A stretch of 64,000 nucleotides of DNA, from NCBI GenBank assembly GCA_902362375.1, contig CABIVS010000002.1:456757-520756 (forward strand), in the 5' to 3' direction. Origin of the DNA: Bacteroidaceae bacterium (GTDB lineage: Bacteria > Bacteroidota > Bacteroidia > Bacteroidales > Bacteroidaceae). This document shows positions 20,949-56,581 of this stretch, one piece after another. The notes under the pieces were generated by a model that was given only the letters and a program-made list of their open reading frames with translations, was not told where the DNA came from and ran no database searches. Positions within the stretch are counted from its first letter, which is position 1; each line of letters begins with the position of its first letter. The position numbers and the translations under genes were made by a program.

Positions 20949-21130
20949 TTTAATTAATGTATTAGAAGTCGAAAATAATTTCCATTGTGCTGTCGTACTT
21001 TAAATGAGAAGTAAATGTAGGTATTATTATTGATGTAATTGTTATAGTTGGAGTAAAATTTATTCTTTTGGTTGTTAGAATATGCAGAAACTTCTATTCT
21101 AACAAAAAAATATGATTTGCAATGAGCATT

Positions 21131-23908: not shown

Positions 23909-24095
23909 AGGCTTGTGTGTAAATATAATAAGTCGTGCTGCTGTTCTTATTTATTATTTTGGATATAAAAGTAAGAATATTTTCCAGAATATCAAAACCG
24001 AAGTAGAAAAAACAGTGAATGACTTTATTCAGTTTTGTATTGTTATAAATATAGAGTGAGATTTGGTTTGGGGGTATTGAACGTGATAAAAGAGA

Positions 24096-24125
24096 TTTGT
24101 TTTGCCAATGAAATCATTATCTTTG
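24096..24125 (+). promoter_or_regulatory. Promoter of the zinc dehydrogenase operon
   Basis: TTTG at 24096-24099 and TATCTTTG at 24118-24125, 18 nt apart, in the 249-bp divergent gap after the helicase start. The leader is about 25-30 nt. Confidence 0.65.
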
Positions 24126-24145
24126 CAAGGTATATATTAATGAAT

Positions 24146-24157
24146 GAGGAGGATATT
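24146..24157 (+). promoter_or_regulatory. Shine-Dalgarno site deciding the dehydrogenase start
   Basis: AGGAGG at 24147-24152, 5 nt before the ATG at 24158. This is unusually strong for Bacteroides and argues against the in-frame ATG at 24140. Confidence 0.7.
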
Positions 24158-25198
24158 ATGCTTGCATACACATATATTGAACACGGAAAGTTTGATTTGC
24201 AGGAGAAGGCGAGACCGGAAATAAAGGATTCACGGGATGCAATCGTACGTGTAACACTTGGTAGCATCTGCACCAGTGATCTTCATATTAAACATGGCAG
24301 TGTGCCGCGTGCTGTGCCCGGAATAACTGTCGGGCATGAGATGGTAGGTGTGGTAGAACAAGTGGGGGCTGATGTCACTTCGGTGAAGCCTGGTGACAGG
24401 GTGACTGTGAATGTCGAAACTTTCTGCGGTGAGTGTTTTTTCTGTAAGCATGGATATGTGAATAACTGTACTGACCCTAATGGCGGTTGGGCTTTAGGTT
24501 GTCGAATTGATGGCGGTCAGGCGGAATATGTCAGAGTTCCTTATGCGGATCAAGGTTTGAACCGTATTCCGGATACAGTGAGTGATGAACAAGCTTTGTT
24601 TGTCGGTGATGTGCTTGCAACAGGTTTTTGGGCAGCACGCATCTCGGAAATTACCGAGGAAGATACTGTTCTTATCATCGGTGCCGGACCTACCGGGATT
24701 TGTACTTTGTTGTGTGTGATGCTGAAGAAGCCAAAACGCATTATTATCTGTGAGAAGTCTCCTGAAAGAATTCGGTTTGTCCGCGAGCATTATCCTGATG
24801 TGTTGGTGACTGAACCGGAAAACTGCAAGGATTTTGTTTTCAAGAACAGTGACCATGGTGGTGCAGATGTTGTTTTGGAAGTGGCAGGGAGTGACGATTC
24901 TTTTTATTTGGCTTGGGATTGCGCCCGTTCTAATGCTATTGTCACGATTGTAGCCCTCTATGACAAACCACAGCTTCTTCCTTTACCTGATATGTATGGC
25001 AAGAATTTGATTTTCAAAACAGGGGGAGTGGATGGCTGCGACTGTGCCGAAATCCTTGCGCTGATTGAGGAAGGTATAATTGATACTACTCCTCTTATTA
25101 CGCACCGGTTTTCGTTGAATGAGATTGAGGAAGCTTACCGTATTTTCGAGAACAAGTTGGATGGGGTTATTAAAGTAGCTATATCAGGAAGTAAGTAA
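24158..25198 (+). CDS. Zinc-dependent alcohol dehydrogenase family protein
   Basis: This 346-residue medium-chain dehydrogenase is NAD(P)-dependent. Catalytic zinc ligands are C38, H60 and E61 ('SICTSDLH', 'VGHEMVG'). The structural zinc lobe has four Cys in 'CGECFFCKHGYVNNC'. The Rossmann motif GAGPTG lies near residue 175. It oxidises an alcohol or polyol or reduces the aldehyde, but the substrate is not evident. It resembles sorbitol and threonine dehydrogenases more than ethanol enzymes. It is probably co-transcribed with the phosphatase-like gene 15 bp downstream. Confidence 0.88.
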   Translation: MLAYTYIEHGKFDLQEKARPEIKDSRDAIVRVTLGSICTSDLHIKHGSVPRAVPGITVGHEMVGVVEQVGADVTSVKPGDRVTVNVETFCGECFFCKHGYVNNCTDPNGGWALGCRIDGGQAEYVRVPYADQGLNRIPDTVSDEQALFVGDVLATGFWAARISEITEEDTVLIIGAGPTGICTLLCVMLKKPKRIIICEKSPERIRFVREHYPDVLVTEPENCKDFVFKNSDHGGADVVLEVAGSDDSFYLAWDCARSNAIVTIVALYDKPQLLPLPDMYGKNLIFKTGGVDGCDCAEILALIEEGIIDTTPLITHRFSLNEIEEAYRIFENKLDGVIKVAISGSK

Positions 25199-25704: not shown

Positions 25705-26547
25705 TCATATATGTACATCATCCGGTGATGGTGGCAGATCTGTGTCATTTTGAACGCGAAGTTGCCAGAAAGCAATAGCGGATGCGGCGGCTACATTGAG
25801 AGAGTCGACACCGTTTGCCATAGGAATGCGGACTACATAGTCCGCTTCATTAATTGTTTCGTTTTGAAGACCGTCTCCCTCTGTTCCCATTACGATGGCT
25901 AACTTGGGTTCGGTTGCTAAGATAGGATTATCGATGGAGATTGATTTCTCCGTGAGTGCCATAGCGACTGTACGAAAACCCAGTTTGCGCAACTCATTGG
26001 GAGAACCGTCCAACCAAGTCCATGGTATCAGGAAGACAGAACCCATCGAAACCCTGACTGCACGTCGGTTCAACGGATCGCAGGAATTACGCGTCAATAA
26101 TATAGCATCTATTCCCAAGGCGGCTGCGGAACGGAAGATGGCTCCGATATTAGTAGTGTCCACCACACCCTCAATGACTACGATCCGCCGGGCTTTCCGG
26201 CATACTTCTTCTACACTTGGTAGTGCCCGACGACGCATGGCACAGAGGACACCGCGCGTCAGTGTATATCCGGTCAATGTGGCAAGTAACTTTCTTTCAC
26301 CAGTATAGACTGGTATATCACCACAACGTTCAATAATGCCAGCGGCATCACCAGTGATATGTTTCTGTTCACACAAGAGGGCTAAAGGCTCATAACCAGC
26401 ATTCAGAGCTACATGGATAACTTTGGGACTTTCTGCAATAAACAATCCCTTATCAGGCTCGATACGATTGCGTAATTGAGCTTCGGTGAGGGTACTGAAT
26501 ATTTCTACTCCGGAGTCTGTTAAGGATGATATTTCTATAATAGGCAT
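25705..26547 (-). CDS. TrmH/SpoU-family RNA 2'-O-ribose methyltransferase
   Basis: A 280-residue SPOUT enzyme that methylates ribose 2'-OH of rRNA or tRNA with S-adenosylmethionine. Motif 1 is 'VDTTNIGAIFRSA', motif 2 'IVMGTEGDGL', and motif 3 'IPMANGVDSLNVAAASAI', which forms the trefoil knot. The N-terminal 90 residues are the substrate-binding domain ('LFIAESPKVIHVAL'). It converges on the phosphatase-like gene, with 14 bp between. The target nucleotide cannot be told from sequence. Confidence 0.88.
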   Translation of the reverse strand: MPIIEISSLTDSGVEIFSTLTEAQLRNRIEPDKGLFIAESPKVIHVALNAGYEPLALLCEQKHITGDAAGIIERCGDIPVYTGERKLLATLTGYTLTRGVLCAMRRRALPSVEEVCRKARRIVVIEGVVDTTNIGAIFRSAAALGIDAILLTRNSCDPLNRRAVRVSMGSVFLIPWTWLDGSPNELRKLGFRTVAMALTEKSISIDNPILATEPKLAIVMGTEGDGLQNETINEADYVVRIPMANGVDSLNVAAASAIAFWQLRVQNDTDLPPSPDDVHI

Positions 26548-27345
26548 AGTGACTTCTTGAAATGATCTATTTTATTGCAGCGATGATAGCATGCACTTCT
26601 CTTACTTACCGATGCAAAATATTTTTTTAATGCCTATCCACAACCTTGCAAGTGCTTGAAATATAGTATATTACAAAGTTTTACCGAAGGACAGAAGTTC
26701 GTTCGGGGGGACAGACTAGGGACTGCTTTTTTGCAAAGAAACCAATAAAATCTGCAAAAACGCACTTTTTTTAGAATTTTTAGCATATTTGCATTTCGTT
26801 GCATAGTAAAATAGCCTTTAATTGGAGCTGAAATTGCACCTGCGATTGCTATTAAATTTAGTGGTTTAGTTTAGTCCAATGTATATATAGAAATAGGAGT
26901 AAACTAAACTGCCTTTATCGACAAATCTAAGAGGCTCGTTATAGCAGCGGCTTTACACTCTTCTAAAATGGACTTTGTTCCTCTCATTTGCAGATGTTAT
27001 GTGTTTCTTTATATCCGTCTACCCTTTAGTAAGTGTTTCTGAGAAGTGCCAAAGTATACTCGTTTTGCTTCTCAAAAGAAGAGAGAAGTAGGTCTTTCAT
27101 AGGTTGGGTATACCATCTAATTTTTCTTTTCTCAAGCAATCGTTTATTGACCCATTACAGTCATTTCCGAAGTTTGCTTCGAGAACATTAAGGTTTTATT
27201 CTTTAATTTTTGGTGTCATCCTTTGCTTCTTGAGTATCATTCTTTGCCTTTTGGGTGTCATTCTGAATTTTCTGTCCACCTTTTTACGTTTCTTGTCCAC
27301 TTATTCTTGTTCAACATCTTTATAATTTAACGTATCTATTTGTTG

Positions 27346-27400
27346 TTTTGGGGTTCACTTTAGGGTTCATTTTGGGGTTCAATCAAAGTTTTGGGGTTCA
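27346..27400 (+). repeat. Four short direct repeats (TTTTGGGGTTCA)
   Basis: Copies at 27346, 27359 (one base changed and one shorter), 27370 and 27389, spaced by 1-8 nt. The purpose is unknown. They lie about 200 bp before the AbiL-like operon. Confidence 0.8.
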
Positions 27401-27548
27401 TATTATCGAACTTGTTACCATTAATCCCTGCTTGTGTCATTTATCTCTGACAATAAAACATGTTCTTCGATGATTTAAGAGTTATAATAGTGAAATTTCA
27501 TTTATAATTGTAAAATCCGTAACAAAACAACAAAATAATGGTTTATAA

Positions 27549-27580
27549 ATTGATTTTATCTGGTTTTATAAGTATATTTG
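27549..27580 (+). promoter_or_regulatory. Promoter of the AbiL-like operon
   Basis: ATTG at 27549-27552 and TATATTTG at 27573-27580 with 20 nt between. The leader is about 25 nt. Confidence 0.65.
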
Positions 27581-27612
27581 CATCGTAAAAGTAGAACGTT
27601 AATAGTACAACT

Positions 27613-28911
27613 ATGATAGCTGAATTTTCAATTGAGAATTTTTTCTCTATTAAGTCGTCTCAAAAGATAAGTTTTGAACCTACATCAGATGTGTTTATGT
27701 CTGATGAATATTCTTATGAAGTGAAAGAAGGAGTGCGATTGCTTAAGATAGGTATTATATATGGCGCCAATGCTTCTGGTAAGACTAATATATTGAATGC
27801 TGTTGAGTTTTTTAGAATGCTTGTTTTAAGTATGCCTAAAGATCGTAATACGAAGACAGGTGTTGTTCCTTTTCTTTTGGATGATACATCCAGAAACGAA
27901 AGAACAAAGATGTCAATGACATTTTATATCAATCAACTGAAGTACATCCTTAGCTTCGAACTTGATTCAAAGCGAATTTATTCAGAATCTTTGGTGGTTT
28001 ATGAATCAATTCGTCCTACCAAGTTATATGGTCGCACTTATGAAGAAAGTACAGATTCTTCAATAATTGAATTTGGAGCAAACCTAAAGCTTTCTAAAAA
28101 GGGACAAGATGCCATATTCGGTAATACTATTAATAATAGTAGCGTGTTGGCTGCATTCGGTAAGAGTAACGTTGAAAAAACAAAATTGAATGACGTTTAC
28201 GATTATTTTGCTATGCAGGTCAAGGATGTATTGGCACCTGGTATGTTGTTGTCGGGATACGTAAAGAAGCATCTTGACAAGGACAAAGGTGGAGAACTCA
28301 AGAAGTTTATATTGAATTTCTTAAAAGCATCTGACTTTAATATCGAAGATGTGGCTCTGCATGAAGAAGAGGAATTGATAACTCCAGAACTGGAGCAATT
28401 AATACAGAAAGCACCTATTGATGATGATGCTAAAGCGGAAATGTTGAAGAAAGGAAAAATCACCAATACGGAATTGACTTTCACACATAAAGCAGGAGAG
28501 AAGTTGTATGATTTGTCTGAAGAGTATGAGTCAAATGGTACAATGCGTTTTTTGGGAATGGCTGTAATCCTGAACTTCCTTTTGAAGAAGAATCAATTTG
28601 TCTCTATTGACGAGGTTGAGACAAGTATTCACTATGAATTGTTGGCATACTTCATTAAAGTATTCTTGGCTAATAGTGACGGTACATCTCAAATGTTGTT
28701 GACTACGCATGATATCAATCTTCTAAATGAAGAGTTCATCCGTAGAGATACAATATGGTTCACAGATAAAGACGAACAAGGTGAAACCAAAGTTTTTCGT
28801 CTTTCATCTCTTGGTTTACACAAGAACCTGTCACCATACAATGCTTACAAGCAAGGCAAGTTGGTTAAGTTACCATTCTTGGGTAGTCAATACTTCAACT
28901 TAAACGAATAA
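27613..28911 (+). CDS. AbiL/RloA-like AAA ATPase (AAA_15/AAA_21 type)
   Basis: This 432-residue ABC/SMC-like ATPase has Walker A 'YGANASGKTN' near residue 50-59. The signature-like 'SNGTMRFLGM' lies near 307, Walker B 'FVSIDEVETSIH' near 333, and an H-loop 'LLTTHDINLL' near 364. The N-terminus 'EFSIENFFSIK' is typical of OLD-family and RloA ATPases. With the RloB-domain protein starting 3 bp after its stop it makes a two-gene abortive-infection module like AbiL of Lactococcus. The ATPase presumably senses infection or controls the RloB effector. Confidence 0.82.
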   Translation: MIAEFSIENFFSIKSSQKISFEPTSDVFMSDEYSYEVKEGVRLLKIGIIYGANASGKTNILNAVEFFRMLVLSMPKDRNTKTGVVPFLLDDTSRNERTKMSMTFYINQLKYILSFELDSKRIYSESLVVYESIRPTKLYGRTYEESTDSSIIEFGANLKLSKKGQDAIFGNTINNSSVLAAFGKSNVEKTKLNDVYDYFAMQVKDVLAPGMLLSGYVKKHLDKDKGGELKKFILNFLKASDFNIEDVALHEEEELITPELEQLIQKAPIDDDAKAEMLKKGKITNTELTFTHKAGEKLYDLSEEYESNGTMRFLGMAVILNFLLKKNQFVSIDEVETSIHYELLAYFIKVFLANSDGTSQMLLTTHDINLLNEEFIRRDTIWFTDKDEQGETKVFRLSSLGLHKNLSPYNAYKQGKLVKLPFLGSQYFNLNE

Positions 28912-28914
28912 TAT

Positions 28915-29517
28915 ATGGCAAGAGTAGTAAGTAAGAGTATAGCCATCATTGGTGAAGGGGAAACAGAATGGTTCTATTTTGATTCTCTACGTGTAGCTTG
29001 CCGCTTTCCATTCAAGGTGGCTCCAGACTTTCCGCAACATAGCGACATCCGGCATGTCTTGAAGTTGGTAGAATCATATATAGCCAAACAGTATGACTAT
29101 ATCGTCTGTCTGTTTGACATGGATAGGTTGTATCAATATCCATCGGAGATGCAACAGTACCAAAGTGCAAAGAAGAAATATAGCACAAAGAAGTATGCTG
29201 GACGAGTCATGTTTATTGAGACTAATCCATGTACTGAATTTTGGTTCTTGTTGCACTTCTTGCCAAATGTGGTGTGCAAACACTATGAAAGTTACGAGCA
29301 GCTACTTCCGGAATTACAGAAGTATATGCCAGGATACGAAAAGACAAAGCGTTATTTCATCCGCACTAACCTCTATAAATACTTGACAGAGAATGGTGAT
29401 TTGGAACGTGCTGTCCAAAATTCAGAGAAGTTATGTCTGTTGTGCAAGGAGACTCCTGAAGACTTGAAGGCATATTCGGAGATACATAAGGTGATAAAAT
29501 TGTTGAATCAAATATAA
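28915..29517 (+). CDS. RloB-domain protein, partner of the AAA ATPase
   Basis: A 200-residue protein matching the RloB family: N-terminal 'SIAIIGEGETEWFYF' (G-E-G-x-T-E signature, Toprim-like), 'DYIVCLFDMDRL' giving the D-x-D acidic pair near residue 64-66, and 'NPCTEFWFLLHF' near 104. These acidic positions suggest a metal-dependent nuclease-like effector. Family proteins are known as partners of RloA/AbiLi-type ATPases. Immediate coupling to the upstream gene supports a toxin/effector role in phage abortive infection. Confidence 0.82.
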   Translation: MARVVSKSIAIIGEGETEWFYFDSLRVACRFPFKVAPDFPQHSDIRHVLKLVESYIAKQYDYIVCLFDMDRLYQYPSEMQQYQSAKKKYSTKKYAGRVMFIETNPCTEFWFLLHFLPNVVCKHYESYEQLLPELQKYMPGYEKTKRYFIRTNLYKYLTENGDLERAVQNSEKLCLLCKETPEDLKAYSEIHKVIKLLNQI

Positions 29518-29593
29518 TGTACTATTGATTATTCACAAATCGAATTATAATCACTTCTCTATGTAGTGAATTCAATATATAATTAAATTTAAC

Positions 29594-30544
29594 ATGAATA
29601 TAGACGAAATCTATACTACTATACAGAACTATCTAAAAGAGCCACCTCTTGTTATTTGGGGCTCTGGAGCTACGATTGGTTTTGGCTTACCTAGTATGTC
29701 TAATCTCAAGGATGAGATAGCTAAGGATTTACCTACGTTTGATAAGACTTGTTCTGATTTAGAATTTGAATTAGGAAAAGACAAATACGAGCCTAATCTT
29801 CCACAAATAAGAAAGATAATAAGGAATGTGATATGTTCGGCAGATATAGAAGCTAAAGAGCGGCTTCTGAAATGTGTTGAAGATTATGAAGGGATACGGC
29901 TTTTGACTAGTTTTTGTTATGACCCACATCCAAAAGTAATGAATGTAGTATCAACCAACTATGATAGAATTTTGGAGTATGTATGGGGATATTATGGTTT
30001 TTATTATACAGATGGTTTTGGGCAACAGGAATTGTCGGAGTTTGATGAAAACAGATTTCAAGATAAGAATATAATCAATCTAATGAAAGTTCATGGTTCG
30101 CTTGACTGGTTTGATGTTGACCATGAAGTCCGAAAACTTAGCACCGATTTTGGATACGATCCTGTTATGATTCCGCCAGGAAAGAATAAGTATAGAACAA
30201 CTCATAATAGTCCTTATCGCGAATTAATGCAAAAATCAGACGAGGCCATAAAAAGGGCATCTTCTTTTTTAGTTGTAGGGTTCGGCTTTAATGATGAACA
30301 TATTACCCCTTTGGTGAGAAAGAAGACAAAAGCAGGAACACCAATTGTGGTAGTAACAATGAAGGTAACATCAACAACAGAACACCAATTGGAGAAGGCG
30401 AAGAAGGTTATTTTTGTTGAAGCGGATGGTGCAGATTTGAATAAGACTCGTATTCGTATCATAGAAAACGGAATTGTTATTTCAGATTCAGTGGAAGAGG
30501 GTGAATTTTGGAAACTTAAAAGATTTATGGATATAGTAGGATGA
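29594..30544 (+). CDS. SIR2-like NADase domain protein (SIR2-HerA system)
   Basis: A 316-residue sirtuin-like protein. The NAD-binding start is 'VIWGSGATIGFGLPSM' (about 19-34), then 'VVSTNYDRILEYV' with the conserved Asn and Asp, and 'LMKVHGSLDW' with the catalytic His near 174. 'FLVVGFGFNDEHI' completes the fold. In anti-phage SIR2 proteins this domain hydrolyses NAD+ and starves the infected cell. Its stop overlaps the HerA start (ATGA at 30541), and SIR2-HerA pairs of this order are an established defence system. No separate promoter was identified in the 76-bp gap after rloB. Confidence 0.88.
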   Translation: MNIDEIYTTIQNYLKEPPLVIWGSGATIGFGLPSMSNLKDEIAKDLPTFDKTCSDLEFELGKDKYEPNLPQIRKIIRNVICSADIEAKERLLKCVEDYEGIRLLTSFCYDPHPKVMNVVSTNYDRILEYVWGYYGFYYTDGFGQQELSEFDENRFQDKNIINLMKVHGSLDWFDVDHEVRKLSTDFGYDPVMIPPGKNKYRTTHNSPYRELMQKSDEAIKRASSFLVVGFGFNDEHITPLVRKKTKAGTPIVVVTMKVTSTTEHQLEKAKKVIFVEADGADLNKTRIRIIENGIVISDSVEEGEFWKLKRFMDIVG

Positions 30545-32220
30545 AAGAAAGTATTATGATAGGAAAAGTCCAGTATGTTGATACTGGTAATGTTACAATT
30601 AACATTGAAAGGGATGAGTTTGTTAATAGCGTACAAGTCAATCAAATTGTTCAAATAAATTCATCTAAAACTAAAGAAAAAATTATAGGTCTTGTAACAA
30701 AGATTCTTAGAAAGGCATCACCGGTAGATGGTGAGATGGATAATGTAACATCTATCTTTGAAAATTCTATAAGGGTAAATCTTGTTGGAACATTAAAGGA
30801 AAAGGAAGGTATTAAAAAGTATGTCTTTAAAAGAACACTGAGTACAGTTCCAAGTCTTGATGCAGAATGTTATTTGTTGCAAGGAGAAGATTTATCAGAA
30901 TTTATGAAGGCTATATCTTCGAGCAGTGTTAATCCTTTAACTATAGGGAAGTATACTATGTCAGAGGATTCTGTAGCAAATTTGGATGGCAATAAATTCT
31001 TTCAACGACATGCAGTGATAGTAGGAGGTACTGGCTCCGGAAAATCATGGACGGTTGCTAATATCCTTGAAAAAGCGGCAAATCTTAAATCTGTAAATGT
31101 AGTAGTTTTTGATATTCATGGAGAATATTCTCCACTTAAGGATTTGGCTAATGCACAGTTGTTGAAGATTGCTGGGCCTGGTGAAAATCCCAATAATGCA
31201 CAAACAATATTCCTTCCGTATTGGTTGTTATCATATGAAGAAATGGCAGCAATGCTTCTAGACAGAACAGATACTAATGCCCCAAACCAATCAAGAGCAT
31301 TATTTGATTTGATATTAAGTGGAAAGCTTGATACAGTCCGAAATGAACATGATACTATAACTGAATCAAATATGACTGTAGAAAGTCCTATTCCATACAA
31401 TATTCAAAATGTAGTGGAGGAACTGAAGCGTTTGGATACGGAAATGGTACAAGGTACAAGAGGTGATAAGCAAGGACCACTCTATGGGAAACTGACAAGG
31501 TTTGTACAACGTTTGGAAAGTAAAATTATGGATAAGCGTCTTAATTTTCTCTTCAACAATGATACTACATTGTTGGAATATAATTGGTTCTCAAAATTTA
31601 TTGAAAAGTTGCTTGGCTATGGAAATGAAAATGGAGTGAAAATTGTTGATTTTTCTGAAGTTCCCTCAGATATATTGCCATTGATTACTGGTTTGATGGG
31701 CCGTCTAATTTTTACGATTCAACAGTGGACTGAAACAAATGAACGGCATCCCATAGCTGTTTTCTGTGACGAGGCCCATTTGTATTTGCCTGTTTCATCA
31801 GTTGATAGTATGGATGAACGTGGGTTGAAGAGTTTTGAGAGGATTGCTAAAGAAGGTCGTAAATATGGAGTTTCACTTGTTGTAATTAGTCAACGCCCCG
31901 CAGATGTAAGCAAAACAATATTAAGTCAGTGTGGTAATTTTATAGCGATGAGACTGACAAATCCAGAAGACCAAAATGTTATACGAAGATTATTCCCTGA
32001 TAGCCTGGGCGATTTTGCAGGAATGTTACCAATTTTGGATGTTGGTGAAGGATTGGTAGTTGGTGATGCTTCATTATTGCCAAGTCGTGTAATATTGGAT
32101 AAGCCTATTATTCAGCCAAATAGTTCCACTGTTGATTTTTGGGATATATGGAATGAGGATAAGAAATCTACAACTTGGGAAAAGGCTGTAAATGCAATGA
32201 GACAACAGCAGAAATTGTAA
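30541..32220 (+). CDS. HerA-family ATPase (SIR2-HerA system)
   Basis: A 559-residue hexameric DNA translocase of the HerA/FtsK superfamily. A HAS-barrel-like N-terminal domain (about 1-110) is followed by Walker A 'VGGTGSGKSW' near 160-168, Walker B 'IAVFCDEAHLYLP' near 405-415, and 'VVISQRPADVSKTILSQC' (sensor/arginine-finger region) near 455. It forms the ring on which SIR2 subunits assemble and regulates or activates their NADase and any nuclease activity. An in-frame ATG at 30556 is an alternative start, but the ATGA overlap favours 30541. Confidence 0.9.
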   Translation: MKESIMIGKVQYVDTGNVTINIERDEFVNSVQVNQIVQINSSKTKEKIIGLVTKILRKASPVDGEMDNVTSIFENSIRVNLVGTLKEKEGIKKYVFKRTLSTVPSLDAECYLLQGEDLSEFMKAISSSSVNPLTIGKYTMSEDSVANLDGNKFFQRHAVIVGGTGSGKSWTVANILEKAANLKSVNVVVFDIHGEYSPLKDLANAQLLKIAGPGENPNNAQTIFLPYWLLSYEEMAAMLLDRTDTNAPNQSRALFDLILSGKLDTVRNEHDTITESNMTVESPIPYNIQNVVEELKRLDTEMVQGTRGDKQGPLYGKLTRFVQRLESKIMDKRLNFLFNNDTTLLEYNWFSKFIEKLLGYGNENGVKIVDFSEVPSDILPLITGLMGRLIFTIQQWTETNERHPIAVFCDEAHLYLPVSSVDSMDERGLKSFERIAKEGRKYGVSLVVISQRPADVSKTILSQCGNFIAMRLTNPEDQNVIRRLFPDSLGDFAGMLPILDVGEGLVVGDASLLPSRVILDKPIIQPNSSTVDFWDIWNEDKKSTTWEKAVNAMRQQQKL

Positions 32221-32367
32221 TTAAGTGAGAGATTATTTTATTGTGGTTCGATATATTTGGCAGTGCCTATATTTTTTTAAGTGGTCACAATTGTATTACT
32301 TTGTTAAGAATTCTAGTCTGTAAGACTTTGTTTTTTGATTATATAAACGATACTACAAGGTAAGTAT

Positions 32368-32438
32368 GCATTCGATAAAGTACAGGTGTTAAGTATTTAT
32401 ATATAGACAGATATCAGTACCTGTACTTTATCGAATGC
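32368..32438. repeat. 20-bp perfect inverted repeat between convergent defence operons
   Basis: Arms 32368-32387 and 32419-32438 are perfectly complementary with a 31-nt spacer and no T-run. It lies between herA (plus) and the DdmE-like gene (minus), 6 bp from the latter's stop. It may be a bidirectional transcription stop or a boundary left by insertion of one of the operons. The rest of the 223-bp gap is featureless. Confidence 0.8.
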
Positions 32439-32443
32439 TTACA

Positions 32444-34441
32444 CTATAAGTCTTTTCTAAGAGTAATATCCTTCCAGTGTAATGAGTACGCTGTTTCTGC
32501 TGCATCGTCAAGATATTCTTGCAAAAACTTGAATGGGAAAGGATATGTCATAAGCTCATTCCAACGTCCAAAGCCAAACTTTAACATCTTGCATATTTCC
32601 AAAATTTGTTGGTCAATGAGTTCTGGATTTTCTTTATGAAGTATAAATATACGTCGAGCACGAGGCATCTTGTCCATCTTGGTTTTTGGCGTAATCTTCA
32701 TAGAATCGCTATTAGTTCCTGATATGTAGGAATATGAACCTTCAGGATCTCCGTCAATACCATCTGTTTTCCATAGATGGAAACCTATATAACCGCGAAG
32801 ATATTCATGAGCAATTTTCTTACGTTTGAACATAGCGACAGTTTCACCCTCATTCGCCACTAGATTATATGCTTTATCAATCAAATTCACATCTAAAATT
32901 GGTATTTCATCTGTATCGACGATAAAATAGATATTGCCGTCTTTAACTAATGCCATATAATCTCTTGCTCCTCGAATTTTGTCGTAGTCAAAATATTTTA
33001 GCTTTTGAGATATAAAATCCTCGAAATCTACACCTTGATTATCTTGTGATAGTCCATATTGCTCAATATCTATACTTCCTTGATTGTCAATTCTCAAAGA
33101 CGCTCCATGAACATTGCCTTGATTGATTTTGTATCTGATAGCATTCCACCCCTCAAGCATATCTGCCAAAGGCTTTGGCATTACTCTTTTAGCTAAACTA
33201 TCCTTTACAATTAGTTCAATGAGTATTCTTCTCACACTTGGGGTGTCAAGCAAGTCAAGTTTCTCGTCGCCATAATAAGTGATATGCTGGAGGGCATTTC
33301 CATTGTTTGACAATCTTACCATGGATTGTGAATACTGAGTAACCTCACATCCTTCTTCTTTAGGCTCGCATAGTTTGATTATAATATCGTCCGGCGTTGG
33401 CTTTTTGGGAAAAATAAGAAGCCCACTCATAATTTCTTGAGCTTCATTCTTGAAATTCGAAATAACCGACTTGGATCCATTTGTTTGAAACGGGTCTTCA
33501 AATGAAATACTTCTTCCAGCAAGAAACTCTTGTACAAGTGCCAGGATCCCATCTTTGGTTTTGCATTCATCGTAATGTATAATCTGGGAATCTGTGAATT
33601 TTATATCTAAGATTCCTTTAAACGTATCATTAACAGATTCTACTACCTGCCAGATAACATACAATTTTCCGTGAGCATAATCTTCTACATTATATGGCCA
33701 ATAAGGAACAAGGTTCTTATTATCTTTGAAGTTCTTCTTCTGAATGAAAAGTTTTTTCAAGTCGTACTCACCACTTTTTATGCTTTTAATGATTATTGGT
33801 TTTACAGATTGCCCAGACCAAAATTCTCCATCTAAATCTTTGGAAATCTGGAATACGCATGTTCTGTGCTTTAATAGATCTTTTTCATTAAAAGGATTAG
33901 AAAACGATGTTGTTCGAGCTGTAAGATTCATGTATTCATTAACCTCTATTTTAAGACATACAAGTTCTTTGCGACTCTTGCGAACCCCAAAATTCTTGTC
34001 GTCACAAACAAGTAACGAGCCATCGTTATACATCATATTGCTATTCTTTTTCTTTCCAAGAGAATTTATAGCTAATGATGCAATGATTCTTTGCTGTAAT
34101 TTATCTTCATACTTTTCGAGAGTATTATACCAAGCTTTAACATCGTTGTATGCTCTAAGACTTTTAAGAACTTCTTGCTCTTTCCCTTTGATGGTTAATA
34201 TGAAGAATTGAACAGAAGGGAAATGTTGAGCACCCCATCTGTTTCTTATTCCAGTAACAGATATGAAAGGAACATTTCCGAGTTGTTCATAAGCCAGATT
34301 CTTCCGTTCTGGATCCGTACTATAATAAGATACGACCGAGTACTTTGCAAAGAACCTATCTTTATCCCAAGAGACTTCTATTCTATTTGTAGTGATAGGA
34401 AGGCTCTTTATATAATTGTAATCTAATATTATCTTTCCCAT
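32444..34441 (-). CDS. Putative Argonaute-like protein (DdmE-like), second gene of plasmid-defence pair
   Basis: A 665-residue protein with no strong motif. Three facts point to DdmE, the catalytically inactive prokaryotic Argonaute of the Vibrio cholerae DdmDE system. First, its size is close to the family's (about 690 residues, from memory). Second, the preceding gene is a helicase-nuclease of about 1,250 residues in the same order as ddmD-ddmE, with a TAATG overlap at 34441-34443. Third, the C-terminal 100 residues ('PRARRIFILHKE', 'ILEICKMLKFGFGRWNELMTYPFPFKFLQEYLDDAAE') have the shape of a PIWI C-terminus. No DEDX slicer tetrad is evident. The role would be guide-directed recognition of plasmid DNA. 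Alternatives are a pPIWI_RE-type protein or an unrelated partner. Confidence 0.55.
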   Translation of the reverse strand: MGKIILDYNYIKSLPITTNRIEVSWDKDRFFAKYSVVSYYSTDPERKNLAYEQLGNVPFISVTGIRNRWGAQHFPSVQFFILTIKGKEQEVLKSLRAYNDVKAWYNTLEKYEDKLQQRIIASLAINSLGKKKNSNMMYNDGSLLVCDDKNFGVRKSRKELVCLKIEVNEYMNLTARTTSFSNPFNEKDLLKHRTCVFQISKDLDGEFWSGQSVKPIIIKSIKSGEYDLKKLFIQKKNFKDNKNLVPYWPYNVEDYAHGKLYVIWQVVESVNDTFKGILDIKFTDSQIIHYDECKTKDGILALVQEFLAGRSISFEDPFQTNGSKSVISNFKNEAQEIMSGLLIFPKKPTPDDIIIKLCEPKEEGCEVTQYSQSMVRLSNNGNALQHITYYGDEKLDLLDTPSVRRILIELIVKDSLAKRVMPKPLADMLEGWNAIRYKINQGNVHGASLRIDNQGSIDIEQYGLSQDNQGVDFEDFISQKLKYFDYDKIRGARDYMALVKDGNIYFIVDTDEIPILDVNLIDKAYNLVANEGETVAMFKRKKIAHEYLRGYIGFHLWKTDGIDGDPEGSYSYISGTNSDSMKITPKTKMDKMPRARRIFILHKENPELIDQQILEICKMLKFGFGRWNELMTYPFPFKFLQEYLDDAAETAYSLHWKDITLRKDL

Positions 34442-37400
34442 TATCCAATGATTCTTTTGAGTGTGTCAATTGCACTTGGGATGATGTTGCCGTCATTGTC
34501 AATGATTCCATGAATTTCTGTTACAGCATCCATGGACTCTCCAGGAAGTTGCAACATACTAACAGTAATGAGTTGACATCCTAATCTTTCGCGCTTAATC
34601 TTGCGTTTGTCTTTTGTCGCTAGTTCACCCTGTTTATCATTATGCTCCACGAGAGGATTCATGTTCTTAACATCAAATGCAATCTTATAAGTCCCGTCAG
34701 GATTACAAATGACAAAGTCAGCCAATTCATAGTCGCGACCTTCAAGGTGCTTGAAGTCTTCCTCTTTACAATTAGTGTACTCTAAGACTATTGCCTTGAA
34801 AGCTTCTTCACCTATTTCACCTGCATAATCTGTCTTTAATATCTCTGGATGAAGAATTAAGCCACCTGACTTCCAGTTAGTGGCATAACCATTTGCAATA
34901 AAGTGTTTGCGAATAACATCATTCTTCATCAGCACATCCAACCTTACAGTAGAAGGTGATATTGGTTGAGGATATGGCTTCCCTTTTCCTTGTGGGCAAA
35001 TGTCGTTCCTGTGATTTGGCTCAAAGGAGAAGAAGTATTCGTTGTTCTCATTCCTTTGCCAGTCACCATAGCATTTGCAGATGAAAGTCAATTGTTTATC
35101 TTCTTCAACTAATTCGTTATAATCATCAATGACAGGTTTCTTGATGATTGTTTGCTTATAACTTTGATTCATCAACTGGTTTATCTGCACATTATGAGGT
35201 ACAGATGTGCCTTCCTCAATATCGTCGTCGAAATCATCCTCTCGAACAGGATGTGGAGTATACCTAAGGGCAATACTGCGCATTCTGTCGAGTTGCCTTT
35301 TGACGTAGTTGGCATTGTTGCATCTTACAATTTCTTCAGGATTTGCTGTGGTTGAAAGTTCTTTCGGCATTGTAAGGATGTACTCTGCAAGTGTACGGAA
35401 TTCTTTGGTAAGAGACTTTTGAAGGTTGTCTTTGTCAAAATACTTAGCCATATCCATATCGAACAGAATGTATGTTGTATGTGGCTTGTTTCTTGTACGG
35501 CACAAGCGACCAACAGCTTGTTCAACAATAGTTTGGGCCCATGCAGACTTGTCTTTGCCTATGCCTGGATTGTTCTTGTCGCCAAACCAGAAATTGTTAG
35601 AAAGAGCTCTGCATAACCATGAAGCAACCTCGTTCTTTGAGAGACAACCACGTTCATAAAGCATCATCAGGGAGAGCATGGCATTATAAAGGCTTTTCTC
35701 AAAAGTGGACTCATTACCATCCTCACTCATCATTAGATATGCACTTGGACATTGAACATAAACGGCATCCCAGTCTTTCTTTAGTCTTATACCGTTTGTT
35801 TCCCAATTGTCACCTTTGACAAAATCAAGACCATCGGGAATTTCATACTGCATGTTGGCGCCAGCTTTGAAACTTGCATATGCAGATACCAACATGATTT
35901 TAGAATCCTTGCTTTCGCTGAGTTCTTTGAGAATTGATCCTTCAACCTCCTCCCAATCTTTTGAAATCCTAATATGGTTATTAGACCAGTCGCTCGGGAG
36001 CTCATCTTCAAATGGAGTATTCTGGTACTTATATGTTCCATCTATCAGACAACTTAATACATTTGTTTGGATAGGGTCACCATTTCGATTTTGGAAGAAT
36101 ATCATGCTTCTTATGTCTTTATGGTTAATAAACCAATGATAGGCTTCAATAAACTGGAACAGGCGATAAAGAGGGAAGGAAATATTTTCTCCTTCCTTTT
36201 TGGATTTCATGAGTTCTCTCTTAGTACATTTGAACCAGAGATCGTCAAGACCTTCCTCGCGAGCCTCTTTAGAAAACATCATTTTATACTTTTCTGGCAG
36301 GAATGTTTTCTCATCCCTGTTATCTTCGAAAGTATAGTGCTCCAGTGGTTTTATTTCTATTTGATGACCAACTGGATAAGTGTGAGAAACAAGATTATCA
36401 AATGTCTCTCTATCATGTTCAGACAAGACATGAACATTATTTCCAATACTCTCTTTAAGATATTCTATGTCGCAGTTACTAATCACTGACGAGCTTGATG
36501 CTGTTGCAGAACACAGCACGACGGAAGTTCCCTCAGTCTTCAATAGATCGAAAAGAATCTTCTCAGGTGTAGAGGAAATTTCTCGACAGGAAAGACGAAC
36601 TCGATGCTGGTTGTCTCGTTCGTCAACTTCTTCCTGATACAATTGAATGCCTTGTGAATAAACGGAGTAATCGGGCAACTTTAACTTCTCTTCTCCTTTA
36701 TTGATAATCAGATTCTTTCTGTTTGTCATAAATTCAAAGAGCTGTTGCTCAAATTGGTATTCCGAGTTTGTCTCGAAACGAGAGAAGAGTGTATGGATTT
36801 CTCTTTCTCGGGTTGGATAACCTAAATAGTGGTTCTTTGGTAATTTGTTCGCAGAAAGTTCGTCTTCTGTTTTTTCGAACTTTTCCACACTCTTTTGAAA
36901 TGCCTTATTGACTACCTTGCTTAATTGAGCTTTAATGGCTGTGGTATTGCCTACAATCAACGAAAGGAATTTGTCCATTGGCACGACGTAGTCAAATCTT
37001 TGTTTTAATTCAATATCATCCTCTGCGTGATGCAACTTAAATTGCTTCTCGCCTTTGTTGTAGCATATGAATGAATGTGATTTGTCGTTGGATTTAGAGA
37101 CATTGAGTTTTAGAGCAGGTCCAGAGAAAAATACACCTCGACGATAGTCCTCAAGTTCTTCTATGTCACCCAAAAAAATGTTCTTGTATGGCTCTGTCTT
37201 TCCTAGAGTCTTCTCCCAATTTGTTGAGATGATGTTTTTAGCTTTATTCAGAGAATCATCGAGTAAGCTGCCATAATATTCGTCCGACACATGATCTGCC
37301 ATATCTATCAGTTGCTTATACTGAAGATAACCATTGTAGCCCTTTGAAAATCTATTCCTTCCTCCAGAACTTTCTATAGCTTGATCAATGATAGCATTGC

Positions 37401-38208
37401 GCATTGCAATTGCGGCTTGGTCTGATTCATCTAGTAGAATCAGGGTTTTCTTTCCTTTTTCTGTAATGTCATGAAGGCTAATTTTTTCGCCAAGAATAGG
37501 GTCTATGCCGTACATTGCTTTATGTACGGTCATTAGGAGAACTTTTTTCTTTTTATAATCAACCTGAGGGTAAACTTTTGCCAAAGAGGGAAAATCACGC
37601 AGGACTTTTCCAATGTCTAAACGACGACCTTTTTTCTGTCGGTTGTATACTTTTTTATATAACTCAAAGAAGTTTCGAACGTCTCTTCTGAGTTTCGTTT
37701 CTCCTTCGGTTATCTGGGATTGAACAAAATCGTTATTGTTGTTACCCTGAGTAAGAATCAAATTTTTAACACCTTCGTAGGTTTTTTTGATTTTACTGCA
37801 GGCATATCTCAATTCATTATTGCTTCCTTCTGTTTTCATCTCACCAATTCTGTGTTCTATCTGTTCGATGAATCTGCGGAAAGAATCAGTATCAATAGCC
37901 TTTTTTATTACCTCTGTATTATTTTCAATAACCAATTTTTGGTCTTCTTTAATCAAACTATCTTGCAAATCAATGAACCTGTCAATCTCTCGGTTCATGC
38001 CTTCTACCAACTTGTTTTGAACGCAGAGAATAACAATACGGTCAAAATGCTTAGGATAGTATTCACATGTCAGTTTTCCAATCGTATAAGACTTGCCTCC
38101 ACCTGTTGCTATGTCACAGATGTGGAGTCCTGGCTTTACATAATTTTTGAAGATACCTTCAACGTGTTTACTCAATTCTTCCTTGTATGTTTCTTTCGCT
38201 TGAATCAT
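34441..38208 (-). CDS. SF2 helicase with C-terminal PD-(D/E)XK nuclease (DdmD-like)
   Basis: This 1,255-residue protein has Walker A 'ATGGGKS' at 34-40, DEAH-type box 'LLDESD' at 259-263, motif III 'CSAT' near 566 and motif VI 'QAVGRLCR' near 897, spread over a long helicase core with insertions. The C-terminal 140 residues form a nuclease: 'AGEIGEEAF' (Glu), 'YELADF' (Asp) and 'IAFDVKN' (D-x-K near 1180). In DdmDE this enzyme is loaded by the Argonaute partner and translocates on and degrades plasmid DNA. The downstream partner overlaps by one base. It follows mnmE on the same strand after 49 bp, and its own promoter is not obvious. Confidence 0.62.
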   Translation of the reverse strand: MIQAKETYKEELSKHVEGIFKNYVKPGLHICDIATGGGKSYTIGKLTCEYYPKHFDRIVILCVQNKLVEGMNREIDRFIDLQDSLIKEDQKLVIENNTEVIKKAIDTDSFRRFIEQIEHRIGEMKTEGSNNELRYACSKIKKTYEGVKNLILTQGNNNNDFVQSQITEGETKLRRDVRNFFELYKKVYNRQKKGRRLDIGKVLRDFPSLAKVYPQVDYKKKKVLLMTVHKAMYGIDPILGEKISLHDITEKGKKTLILLDESDQAAIAMRNAIIDQAIESSGGRNRFSKGYNGYLQYKQLIDMADHVSDEYYGSLLDDSLNKAKNIISTNWEKTLGKTEPYKNIFLGDIEELEDYRRGVFFSGPALKLNVSKSNDKSHSFICYNKGEKQFKLHHAEDDIELKQRFDYVVPMDKFLSLIVGNTTAIKAQLSKVVNKAFQKSVEKFEKTEDELSANKLPKNHYLGYPTREREIHTLFSRFETNSEYQFEQQLFEFMTNRKNLIINKGEEKLKLPDYSVYSQGIQLYQEEVDERDNQHRVRLSCREISSTPEKILFDLLKTEGTSVVLCSATASSSSVISNCDIEYLKESIGNNVHVLSEHDRETFDNLVSHTYPVGHQIEIKPLEHYTFEDNRDEKTFLPEKYKMMFSKEAREEGLDDLWFKCTKRELMKSKKEGENISFPLYRLFQFIEAYHWFINHKDIRSMIFFQNRNGDPIQTNVLSCLIDGTYKYQNTPFEDELPSDWSNNHIRISKDWEEVEGSILKELSESKDSKIMLVSAYASFKAGANMQYEIPDGLDFVKGDNWETNGIRLKKDWDAVYVQCPSAYLMMSEDGNESTFEKSLYNAMLSLMMLYERGCLSKNEVASWLCRALSNNFWFGDKNNPGIGKDKSAWAQTIVEQAVGRLCRTRNKPHTTYILFDMDMAKYFDKDNLQKSLTKEFRTLAEYILTMPKELSTTANPEEIVRCNNANYVKRQLDRMRSIALRYTPHPVREDDFDDDIEEGTSVPHNVQINQLMNQSYKQTIIKKPVIDDYNELVEEDKQLTFICKCYGDWQRNENNEYFFSFEPNHRNDICPQGKGKPYPQPISPSTVRLDVLMKNDVIRKHFIANGYATNWKSGGLILHPEILKTDYAGEIGEEAFKAIVLEYTNCKEEDFKHLEGRDYELADFVICNPDGTYKIAFDVKNMNPLVEHNDKQGELATKDKRKIKRERLGCQLITVSMLQLPGESMDAVTEIHGIIDNDGNIIPSAIDTLKRIIG

Positions 38209-38257
38209 TCTGACAATATAATATGCAACTAATAATCAATTGATTAGCATTTAATAA

Positions 38258-39655
38258 TCATTTGCCGATGCAAAAATGTTGAAAGATATTTTGAAGTACC
38301 ATGTCATTCGTAACCTCACCTGCTATGTCCGAAATAAAGAAAATACATTCACGTATATCTTGCGAAAGAAAATCCCCGGAAATCTGCGAATCAAGTCCGT
38401 TTTGTACTCTATGGATAGCTTCCAAAGCTTTATTTAAAGCTTCGTAATGTCTTACATTTGTTACAATAATATCATTCTGTGTCACTGTAGGCAAGTGTGC
38501 TGCATCAATAAGCATTTTTTGTAGCTCACTTGTATTCTCCCGTTGTTTGGCCGAGATGAAAATAGATTCCGTAGATTCTTTGGGGAAGTCTTTTAGTAAA
38601 GATAATAAATCCTCTTTCTGTTTGCCTTCAATCAAATCAGCCTTATTGAATACAACAATCAAATGTTTTCCTTCGCAACGTGGAATTATCTTCTCTGATA
38701 ACTGTTCAATTTGAGAGGCGGCATTCACAGCATCTACCATCCAAAGGACAATCTCCGCCTGATCCAACTTCTGAAAAGTACGTTCAATACCCAAACTTTC
38801 AATCGTGTCATTGGTTTCCCGGATTCCGGCGGTATCAATGAACCGGAAAGTGATTCCTCCGATATTGACAGTATCTTCGATTACATCACGTGTTGTCCCG
38901 TGAATATCACTGACAATGGCTTTATCCTCATTCAATAATACATTCAGTAAAGTCGATTTTCCGGCATTTGTTTCACCGATGATAGCTACGGGAACACCAT
39001 TCTTAATGGCGTTGCCGACACTAAATGAATGAGCCAACCGTGAAATGACCTGTTCAATTTCATCTGCCAATTTCCTTAATGCCGAACGATCGGCAAATTC
39101 CACATCCTCTTCACTGAAATCCAACTCCAATTCAATCATGGAAGTGAAATTCAACAACTTGTTGCGTAGATCTGTCAGCTCTTTACTGAATCCACCCCGC
39201 ATCTGGCTCATTGCCAATCGGTGAGTGGCAGCAGATGAAGAAGCAATCAAGTCCGCCACGGCTTCTGCCTGACTTAAATCCATCTTTCCATTGAGGAAAG
39301 CACGTTGCGTATATTCTCCCGGCTGGGCCATGCGGCAACCGTTCTTAATAAGCAACTGCATCACCTGTTGAAGAATATAAGTGGAACCATGACACGTGAT
39401 TTCCGTGCTGTCTTCTCCCGTATACGAATGAGGAGCACGGAAAAGGCTGACGAGTACTTCATCAATCATTTCGTCTCCGTCATAAATACGCCCGAATGTC
39501 AAAGTATATGGTTTTTGTCCGCTCAATAATTTGCCTGCTTTGGCTGGCTTGAAGATGCTGCCGGTGATGGAAATAGCTTCCGGACCGGAAACACGGATGC
39601 TTCCGATAGCACCGCCTTGAGCGGTAGCGATGGCGCAGATAGTATCTTGAATCAT
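38258..39655 (-). CDS. mnmE: tRNA uridine-5-carboxymethylaminomethyl GTPase MnmE
   Basis: With MnmG, MnmE makes the 5-carboxymethylaminomethyl modification on wobble U34. The N-terminal folate-binding domain starts 'MIQDTICAIATAQGGAIGSIRVSG', which fixes the start at 39655 rather than eight codons upstream. The G domain has GETNAGKST (about 227-235), 'DTAGIRET' and 'FNKAD'. The C-terminus is the canonical C-I-G-K with the conserved Cys. It is a single-copy core gene and marks the boundary where the accessory defence region ends. Confidence 0.96.
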   Translation of the reverse strand: MIQDTICAIATAQGGAIGSIRVSGPEAISITGSIFKPAKAGKLLSGQKPYTLTFGRIYDGDEMIDEVLVSLFRAPHSYTGEDSTEITCHGSTYILQQVMQLLIKNGCRMAQPGEYTQRAFLNGKMDLSQAEAVADLIASSSAATHRLAMSQMRGGFSKELTDLRNKLLNFTSMIELELDFSEEDVEFADRSALRKLADEIEQVISRLAHSFSVGNAIKNGVPVAIIGETNAGKSTLLNVLLNEDKAIVSDIHGTTRDVIEDTVNIGGITFRFIDTAGIRETNDTIESLGIERTFQKLDQAEIVLWMVDAVNAASQIEQLSEKIIPRCEGKHLIVVFNKADLIEGKQKEDLLSLLKDFPKESTESIFISAKQRENTSELQKMLIDAAHLPTVTQNDIIVTNVRHYEALNKALEAIHRVQNGLDSQISGDFLSQDIRECIFFISDIAGEVTNDMVLQNIFQHFCIGK

Positions 39656-39737
39656 TGTTTTTTCGTTTTGGATGAGCAAAGATAATTGTTTCTAAGTAAA
39701 AAACAGAAAAATGAGCACAACTTATACTTTATTTGTT

Positions 39738-52719: not shown

Positions 52720-52730
52720 CAACCGCAAAA

Positions 52731-52828
52731 CGGGTAAGTCCTATACGGCCAGCTCCCTTCGAATCCTCCAGGGCTTGATCGCAGCAAAGGTAGTTGGTTG
52801 TAGCGGCGCGATATAGATAGCTTACCCA
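52731..52828 (+). ncRNA. ffs: Signal recognition particle RNA, small bacterial type
   Basis: About 98 nt closed by GGGTAAG/CTTACCC (52732-52738/52821-52827). The apical part carries CAGG and GCAGCAAAGGTAG, which match the bacterial SRP domain IV block (E. coli has GCAGCCAAGGCAG). It binds Ffh for co-translational targeting of membrane proteins. It lies between a matching promoter and tRNA-Thr, so it is probably processed from a common transcript. It is assigned by motif and hairpin form, not by a model search. Confidence 0.75.
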
Positions 52829-52831
52829 CCC

Positions 52832-52905
52832 GCCTCTTTAGCTCAGTTGGCCAGAGCACGTGATTTGTAATCTCGGGGTCGTTGGTTCGAATCCGACAAG
52901 AGGCT
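52832..52905 (+). tRNA. tRNA-Thr (anticodon TGT)
   Basis: Standard cloverleaf: acceptor GCCTCTT/AAGAGGC, D-arm GCTC/GAGC, anticodon loop TTTGTAA with TGT, and T-arm GTTGG-TTCGAAT-CCGAC. The anticodon stem has one U-U mismatch. CCA is not encoded. Confidence 0.93.
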
Positions 52906-52932
52906 CAAAAAAGGATATATAACAAATCCAAG

Positions 52933-56488: not shown

Positions 56489-56519
56489 TAGCTGACAATT
56501 TAAGAGTTATACATTCAAA

Positions 56520-56572
56520 TTGTAGGGATCATCAGCTCCAAAGGGCGGTTAAAGGCTAATCCCATAGCCGAT
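56520..56572 (-). promoter_or_regulatory. Fluoride riboswitch (crcB motif)
   Basis: On the minus strand the sequence reads GGCTATGGGATTAGCC, then AACCGCC, then GCTGATGATCCCTAC, the ordered conserved blocks of the crcB-type aptamer. It sits 32 bp before the crcB ATG and just after a -7 box. Fluoride binding should allow crcB expression. Confidence 0.92.
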
Positions 56573-56573
56573 G

Positions 56574-56581
56574 CAAAGATA
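56574..56581 (-). promoter_or_regulatory. -7 box of the riboswitch-crcB transcript
   Basis: TATCTTTG on the minus strand places the transcription start at the first bases of the fluoride aptamer. Confidence 0.75.

Follow-up and report, generated by a model that had tools for sequence, protein, structure and literature searches.

The analysed stretch of 64,000 nucleotides from a Bacteroidaceae bacterium (contig CABIVS010000002.1, positions 456,757 to 520,756), called here the window, very probably carries a DdmDE plasmid-elimination module; we put the probability of this reading at about 0.88. The module consists of two adjoining genes on the reverse strand. The ddmD-like gene (34441–38208) encodes a protein of 1255 amino acids (aa) with a superfamily 2 (SF2) helicase and a C-terminal PD-(D/E)XK nuclease, and the ddmE-like gene (32444–34441) encodes an Argonaute-fold protein of 665 aa. 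An initial annotation had claimed a match to ddmD-ddmE from gene order, sizes and domains, and this is borne out by the homology of the first protein to DdmD, the DdmE-like predicted fold of the second and the adjacency of the genes. The homology of both proteins, the predicted fold of the second, the integrity of motifs, the gene order, the horizontal spread and the position in a defence cluster were computed in this study, while guides, loss of slicing, recruitment, unwinding, cutting and plasmid specificity are drawn from the published work on Vibrio cholerae and Lactobacillus casei.

The helicase-nuclease and its Argonaute-fold partner

Both open reading frames (ORFs) were found with the sizes, order and TAATG overlap described earlier; they have base 34441 in common (junction ...GGATAATGGGA...). 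A scan of genome contigs yielded four loci with a relative of the 665-aa protein (L001, L002, L003 and L004). The same genome carried a DdmD match in 4/4 cases, each time as the adjoining ORF, with overlaps of 1, 1, 1 and 4 bases, respectively. The order ddmD then ddmE is thus common to the window and all four loci.

The 1255-aa protein was recognized by the PADLOC model of DdmD (PDLC04130, E=8.1e-19), and its sole significant sequence matches in the PDB were DdmD of V. cholerae (8u0u and others, E=4.6e-18) and of L. casei (9ix4, E=5.2e-10). According to the initial annotation, a helicase subfamily clearly distinct from DdmD would have spoken against the match; both the PADLOC label and the PDB matches point to DdmD itself. 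A profile from five close DdmD relatives matched Nostoc DdmD (4.2e-22 across 602 columns). Pfam gave a weak ResIII match (4.2e-4) under the cut-off and NCBIfam gave none.

The SF2 motifs and the nuclease residues were compared among nine DdmD-like proteins, of which L015 and L016 share 95% identity. Motif I of the helicase (GGGKS, residues 36–40, 38089–38103 on the reverse strand, like all the motifs given here) is present in eight of the nine, the ninth protein (L019) having a later annotated start. Invariant in 9/9 are D260, E261 and D263 of motif II (DESD, 260–263, 37420–37431), S567, A568 and T569 of motif III (CSATA, 566–570, 36499–36513) and Q897, G900, R901 and R904 of motif VI (QAVGRLCR, 897–904, 35497–35520), which has the form QxxGRxxR. 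The candidate PD-(D/E)XK residues E1134, D1164 and D1179-V-K1181, the last within the core FDVKN (1178–1182, 34663–34677), are likewise invariant in all nine. Judged by homology and motif content, the 1255-aa protein is a predicted DdmD homologue in which the helicase and nuclease motifs noted earlier are all intact.

The fold of the 665-aa protein was predicted by AlphaFold2 from an 86-row alignment (A7), which was picked from the listed relatives and the four loci and includes a second Bacteroidales branch described below (predicted local distance difference test score, pLDDT, 80.4). The solved structures closest to this model (Foldseek/VIA) are L. casei and V. cholerae DdmE, matched across up to 578 residues and far above other Argonautes in the PDB. 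The model comprises an N-terminal lobe (residues about 10–285) and a MID-PIWI lobe (about 285–656), the limits being set by model residues about 285–656 matching A. fulgidus MID-PIWI structures. The PIWI-like C-terminal shape suspected earlier thus appears as part of an Argonaute layout, and the model identifies the protein as a DdmE homologue with a predicted Argonaute fold.

Profile comparison points in the same direction. Relatives of the 665-aa protein numbered 380 at E<=1e-3 (120 listed), and 379 (120 listed) with a more distant query; copies 95% identical to it exist elsewhere, among the matches listed. Profile A7 matched the partner proteins of plasmid-borne DdmD-like helicases of Nostoc and Lactobacillus intestinalis (E=6.4e-17, 566 columns), and sequence search in turn linked these partners to the solved DdmE of L. 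casei (7.6e-13 for Nostoc and 3.4e-4 for L. intestinalis). Landmarks common to the 665-aa protein and one or both intermediates are an N-terminal T-N-R stretch, Q-H-[LI]-[TA] in the MID region and a C-terminal P-[YF]-P-x-K-x-L-x-E. In the profile alignment, the MID-region stretch NALQHIT (382–388, 33278–33298, reverse strand) aligns with QHLTVE of L. casei and Nostoc DdmE; Q385 and H386 are present in 69/69 rows of the window branch, and the sister branch, which is without Q-H at those columns, has E in 14/17 and K in 15/17 rows. The C-terminal stretch NELMTYPFPFKFLQEYL (628–644, 32510–32560, reverse strand) aligns with TVTPYPFKHLREY of V. cholerae DdmE and TVVPYPVKYLREY of L. casei DdmE. The fallback of the initial annotation, an undescribed helicase-nuclease system of two genes that lacks an Argonaute, would agree with the lack of library matches to the second protein in single-sequence searches, but the fold search and the profile comparison both point to DdmE and leave it almost no credibility.

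The positions of the slicer tetrad were placed tentatively by manual alignment, and three of the four appear to carry N, N/D and G. Under this placement, N440 lies opposite the first Asp (N in 68/69 rows of the window branch), residue 501 opposite the second Asp (N in 51/69 and D in 14/69 rows; D in 13/17 rows of the sister branch) and G575 opposite the last tetrad residue (69/69 and 17/17 rows). D509 and E512 are kept in both Bacteroidales branches, their Nostoc counterparts being R and E. This tentative placement is in line with the review PMC12409362, which describes DdmE as catalytically inactive.

Relatives and the weight of the assignment

A second Bacteroidales branch was found in two genomes, G663 (L015:5944-11595) and G522 (L016:7568-13219), where genes for a DdmD-like protein of 1163 aa and a DdmE-like protein of 717 aa lie 6 bases apart; G663 and G522 share 95% and 91% identity in these two proteins. 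The 717-aa protein has 43 relatives. The sister-branch proteins differ from those of the window (about 21% identity), and in L015 the pair is not beside mnmE, the gene that precedes the window pair. The residues common to both branches in the PIWI half are Y505, D509, E512, H555, Y572 and N577; the Nostoc protein has other residues in place of Y505 and D509.

Plasmid records contained four pairs of a DdmD-like gene and a partner (L. intestinalis, Nostoc, Persicobacter and Cetobacterium). PADLOC called DdmD in three of these four helicases. Among the partners, only those of Nostoc and L. intestinalis were tied to DdmE by sequence; that of Persicobacter had no DdmE match in the PDB by sequence. 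A fifth plasmid record, from Lactobacillus delbrueckii, covered 12% of the query and was left out of the count. Two scans of viral contigs found no relative of the 665-aa protein, and phage records gave no match to the window DdmD or Nostoc DdmD.

In the family around G003, the DdmD model matched 5/399 genomes, the centre G003 included; the other four are G663, G522, G500 and G614. When genomes were drawn evenly from the phylum, profile A1 and the DdmD model each matched 1/395, in both cases the centre genome itself; the DdmDE-like system is uncommon in the phylum. The match in G614 was weak (E=8.6e-4), lay in a frame with stops and was left out of the count of DdmD genes. A related genome, G500 (L017), carries a truncated DdmD-like gene of 898 aa, and the ORFs listed around it include no DdmE-like neighbour. 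This case lends some colour to the idea that the window pair, too, is a decayed and non-functional relic, but neither window ORF is truncated, the motifs are intact and the second protein has the 95% identical copies mentioned above, which makes decay very improbable. A gene for a helix-turn-helix and IrrE-type peptidase protein lies directly upstream of the ddmD-like genes in L003 (4135–5256) and L017 (1458–2570) and is absent in the window; it is possibly a regulator or trigger.

Several results weigh against the assignment to DdmDE. The 665-aa protein had no match in Pfam, NCBIfam, PADLOC or the PDB by single-sequence search, and its identity to solved DdmE is low (14–16% for L. casei and 11–13% for V. 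cholerae). The PADLOC model of DdmE (PDLC04131, E<=1) matched in 0/6 genomes, of which four carry the window branch and the other two its sister. Neither profile A2 (8 rows) nor profile A5, built from the sister branch, retrieved a DdmE from the PDB sequences, so that the link depends on the Nostoc and Lactobacillus intermediates. PADLOC also failed to recognize the L. intestinalis helicase, which was used as a relative. A first AlphaFold model, for which the 12 input sequences were the window protein and 11 others 83–88% identical to it, was unusable (pLDDT 39.8) and was replaced, so that the predicted fold depends on the 86-row alignment. The second proteins of the two Bacteroidales branches matched end to end as profiles (574 columns, E=1.8e-5, probability 78), which suggests a link of moderate strength. 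Finally, no source of guides was seen. As to PDLC04131, it is a detection model and not a biological definition of DdmE; it did not match the Nostoc and L. intestinalis partners either, and a match at E<=1 in 1/14 control genomes (Corynebacterium glutamicum) led to no conclusion.

Comparison with known systems and proposed mechanism

The initial annotation placed the pair well outside the proteobacterial setting. The pair does belong to Bacteroidales, but the surprise is lessened, since solved L. casei structures (9iw3, 9ixm, 9ix4) place DdmDE outside the proteobacteria and the four plasmid pairs occur in Nostoc, L. intestinalis, Persicobacter and Cetobacterium. The L. casei system belongs to another phylum and its DdmE has 715 residues in contrast to 665 in the window. 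As for the V. cholerae system (8u0u, 8u3k, 9ezy, 9bgk, 8u0j), the PADLOC model of DdmE misses the window branch. A literature search on DdmDE in Bacteroidota, judged by listings, showed work on V. cholerae but no paper on Bacteroidales members; the supplementary taxonomic tables of PMC11096173 lay outside it, so an earlier notice of Bacteroidota members is possible. The kind of system is already known, and the Bacteroidales branch is a divergent member missed by the PADLOC model of DdmE.

A related system is ApsAB of Escherichia coli ST38, which likewise joins a helicase and PD-(D/E)XK nuclease (ApsA) with an Argonaute-like partner (ApsB) and destabilizes plasmids (PMC11096173). That the window pair is of this sister type and not DdmDE is improbable. 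The outcome, plasmid loss, would be the same, and the text of PMC11096173 treats ApsA and DdmD as one broad family with intermediates. The same text describes ApsB as without sequence similarity to DdmE, with differing models and a MID-like Y..K..QG..K motif, whereas the second protein of the window has its extensive fold match to solved DdmE. Set against the described ApsB motif, with no ApsA or ApsB sequence aligned, the window protein has QH (385–386), like L. casei and Nostoc DdmE, and not QG, and Y370-x5-R376 instead of Y-x3-K. No ApsB structure was among the PDB matches. The window's helicase-nuclease of 1255 aa is also nearer in length to DdmD (1190) than to ApsA, for which nuclease residues up to 1435 are given in PMC11096173.

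According to the review PMC12409362, DdmE uses DNA guides to locate plasmids, and DdmD is recruited from an autoinhibited dimer, translocates along the non-target strand and cuts; DdmDE of V. cholerae targets plasmids. By analogy, the DdmE homologue of the window, a putatively nuclease-dead Argonaute, would be loaded with a short guide and base-pair with foreign (plasmid) DNA that matches it. The guide-loaded protein would then recruit the DdmD homologue, which would load onto the displaced strand. There its SF2 helicase would drive it forward and its C-terminal PD-(D/E)XK domain would cut this strand, leading to plasmid loss. The protein parts needed for this mechanism are encoded in the window; guide use, recruitment and plasmid loss would be as in the published systems.

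Genomic setting and implications

The pair lies behind mnmE (38258–39679, reverse strand), which is upstream of ddmD. The 49-base gap from the mnmE stop to the ddmD start (38209–38257, reverse strand) has 20% G+C and a palindrome AATCAATTGATT at 38234. A sigma-70 scan of 32150–38400 found no promoter in this gap; with 26 sites in the scanned region versus 21.3 (standard deviation 4.2) in shuffled sequences, the scan was uninformative. A 20-base inverted repeat (arms 32368–32387 and 32419–32438) separates the convergent ends of the herA-like gene and ddmE and is possibly a two-way terminator; it was absent from the listing of the terminator scan. At gathering thresholds, no Rfam family matched within ddmDE and its surroundings.

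Compared with a Paludibacteraceae metagenome-assembled genome (L002), the window proteins are 88% (DdmD) and 83% (DdmE) identical, whereas MnmE is 59% identical: the pair has crossed families. In L002, ddmDE is also close behind mnmE, one gene apart. A search with the mnmE region matched 286/301 genomes, and six of the best matches were inspected. In four of these six (L043, L044, L045, L046), mnmE is followed by a tyrosine integrase as second gene; in L042 and L047 none was seen by eye, the ORFs there not being scanned. Bacteroides finegoldii also has an integrase as second gene there. By these cases, the 3' side of mnmE is an integration hotspot in Bacteroidaceae (window at 38258, L043, L044, L045, L046, L023). 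No integrase was apparent in the window at 26548–38257, and no attachment (att) repeat was detected by exact 14-mers between the mnmE 3' end and the rest of the window.

Facing ddmDE, and convergent with it, two further systems lie side by side (27613–32220). One consists of an AbiL-like AAA ATPase (27613–28911, PADLOC AbiLi 2.6e-67) and a RloB-like protein (28915–29517, PADLOC AbiLii 1.1e-19, Pfam RloB 3.7e-31), the other of SIR2 (29594–30544, PADLOC 1.8e-118) and HerA (30541–32220, PADLOC 1.4e-222). AbiL-like and SIR2-HerA systems act against phages. This neighbourhood, named by PADLOC, would suit a pair with the same proteins and fold that in nature attacks the DNA of phages or integrating elements and not plasmids, and sequence does not reveal which target is chosen. 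Such a target is nevertheless rather unlikely, as plasmids are what DdmDE of V. cholerae acts on (PMC12409362) and E. coli ApsAB was inactive on the eight phages tested (PMC11096173).

The initial annotation's "Bacteroides chromosome" is plausible from a Bacteroidales small signal recognition particle RNA (52725–52906, directly beside a tRNA-Thr gene) and mnmE DNA 82% identical to that of B. finegoldii, although the genus is not proven. A fluoride riboswitch lies at 56516–56578 (reverse strand). Beyond the defence genes, an interval of about 1 kb in which no gene is listed (26548–27612) contains four GGGTTCA words at 27351, 27363, 27375 and 27394. The region 20966–25182, with a 925-aa superfamily 1-type helicase with DUF2726 and a dehydrogenase-like gene, is 97% identical to G651, whereas the adjoining SpoU methylase region (25752–26548) is just 73% identical; this contrast suggests a recent exchange.

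The traffic of plasmids and conjugative elements in gut-type Bacteroidales shapes the spread of antibiotic resistance, and the DdmDE reading places a guided plasmid-destroying system in these bacteria. Since the DdmE profile of PADLOC 2.0.0 misses the window protein and all six genomes, surveys using this profile would undercount DdmDE. Tentatively, at least two deep Bacteroidales DdmDE branches that this model does not name may have spread horizontally among gut and rumen bacteria, and the PIWI-half residues that their DdmE proteins share, with Y505 and D509 replaced in Nostoc, could mean that guides, preferred targets or triggers differ from those in V. cholerae and L. casei, whose systems are DNA-guided. 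The reading makes a clear prediction on plasmid instability and offers a divergent DdmE for mechanistic comparison. If the tentative proposal is true, the two DdmDE branches might, speculatively, shape which plasmids Bacteroides and Prevotella keep.

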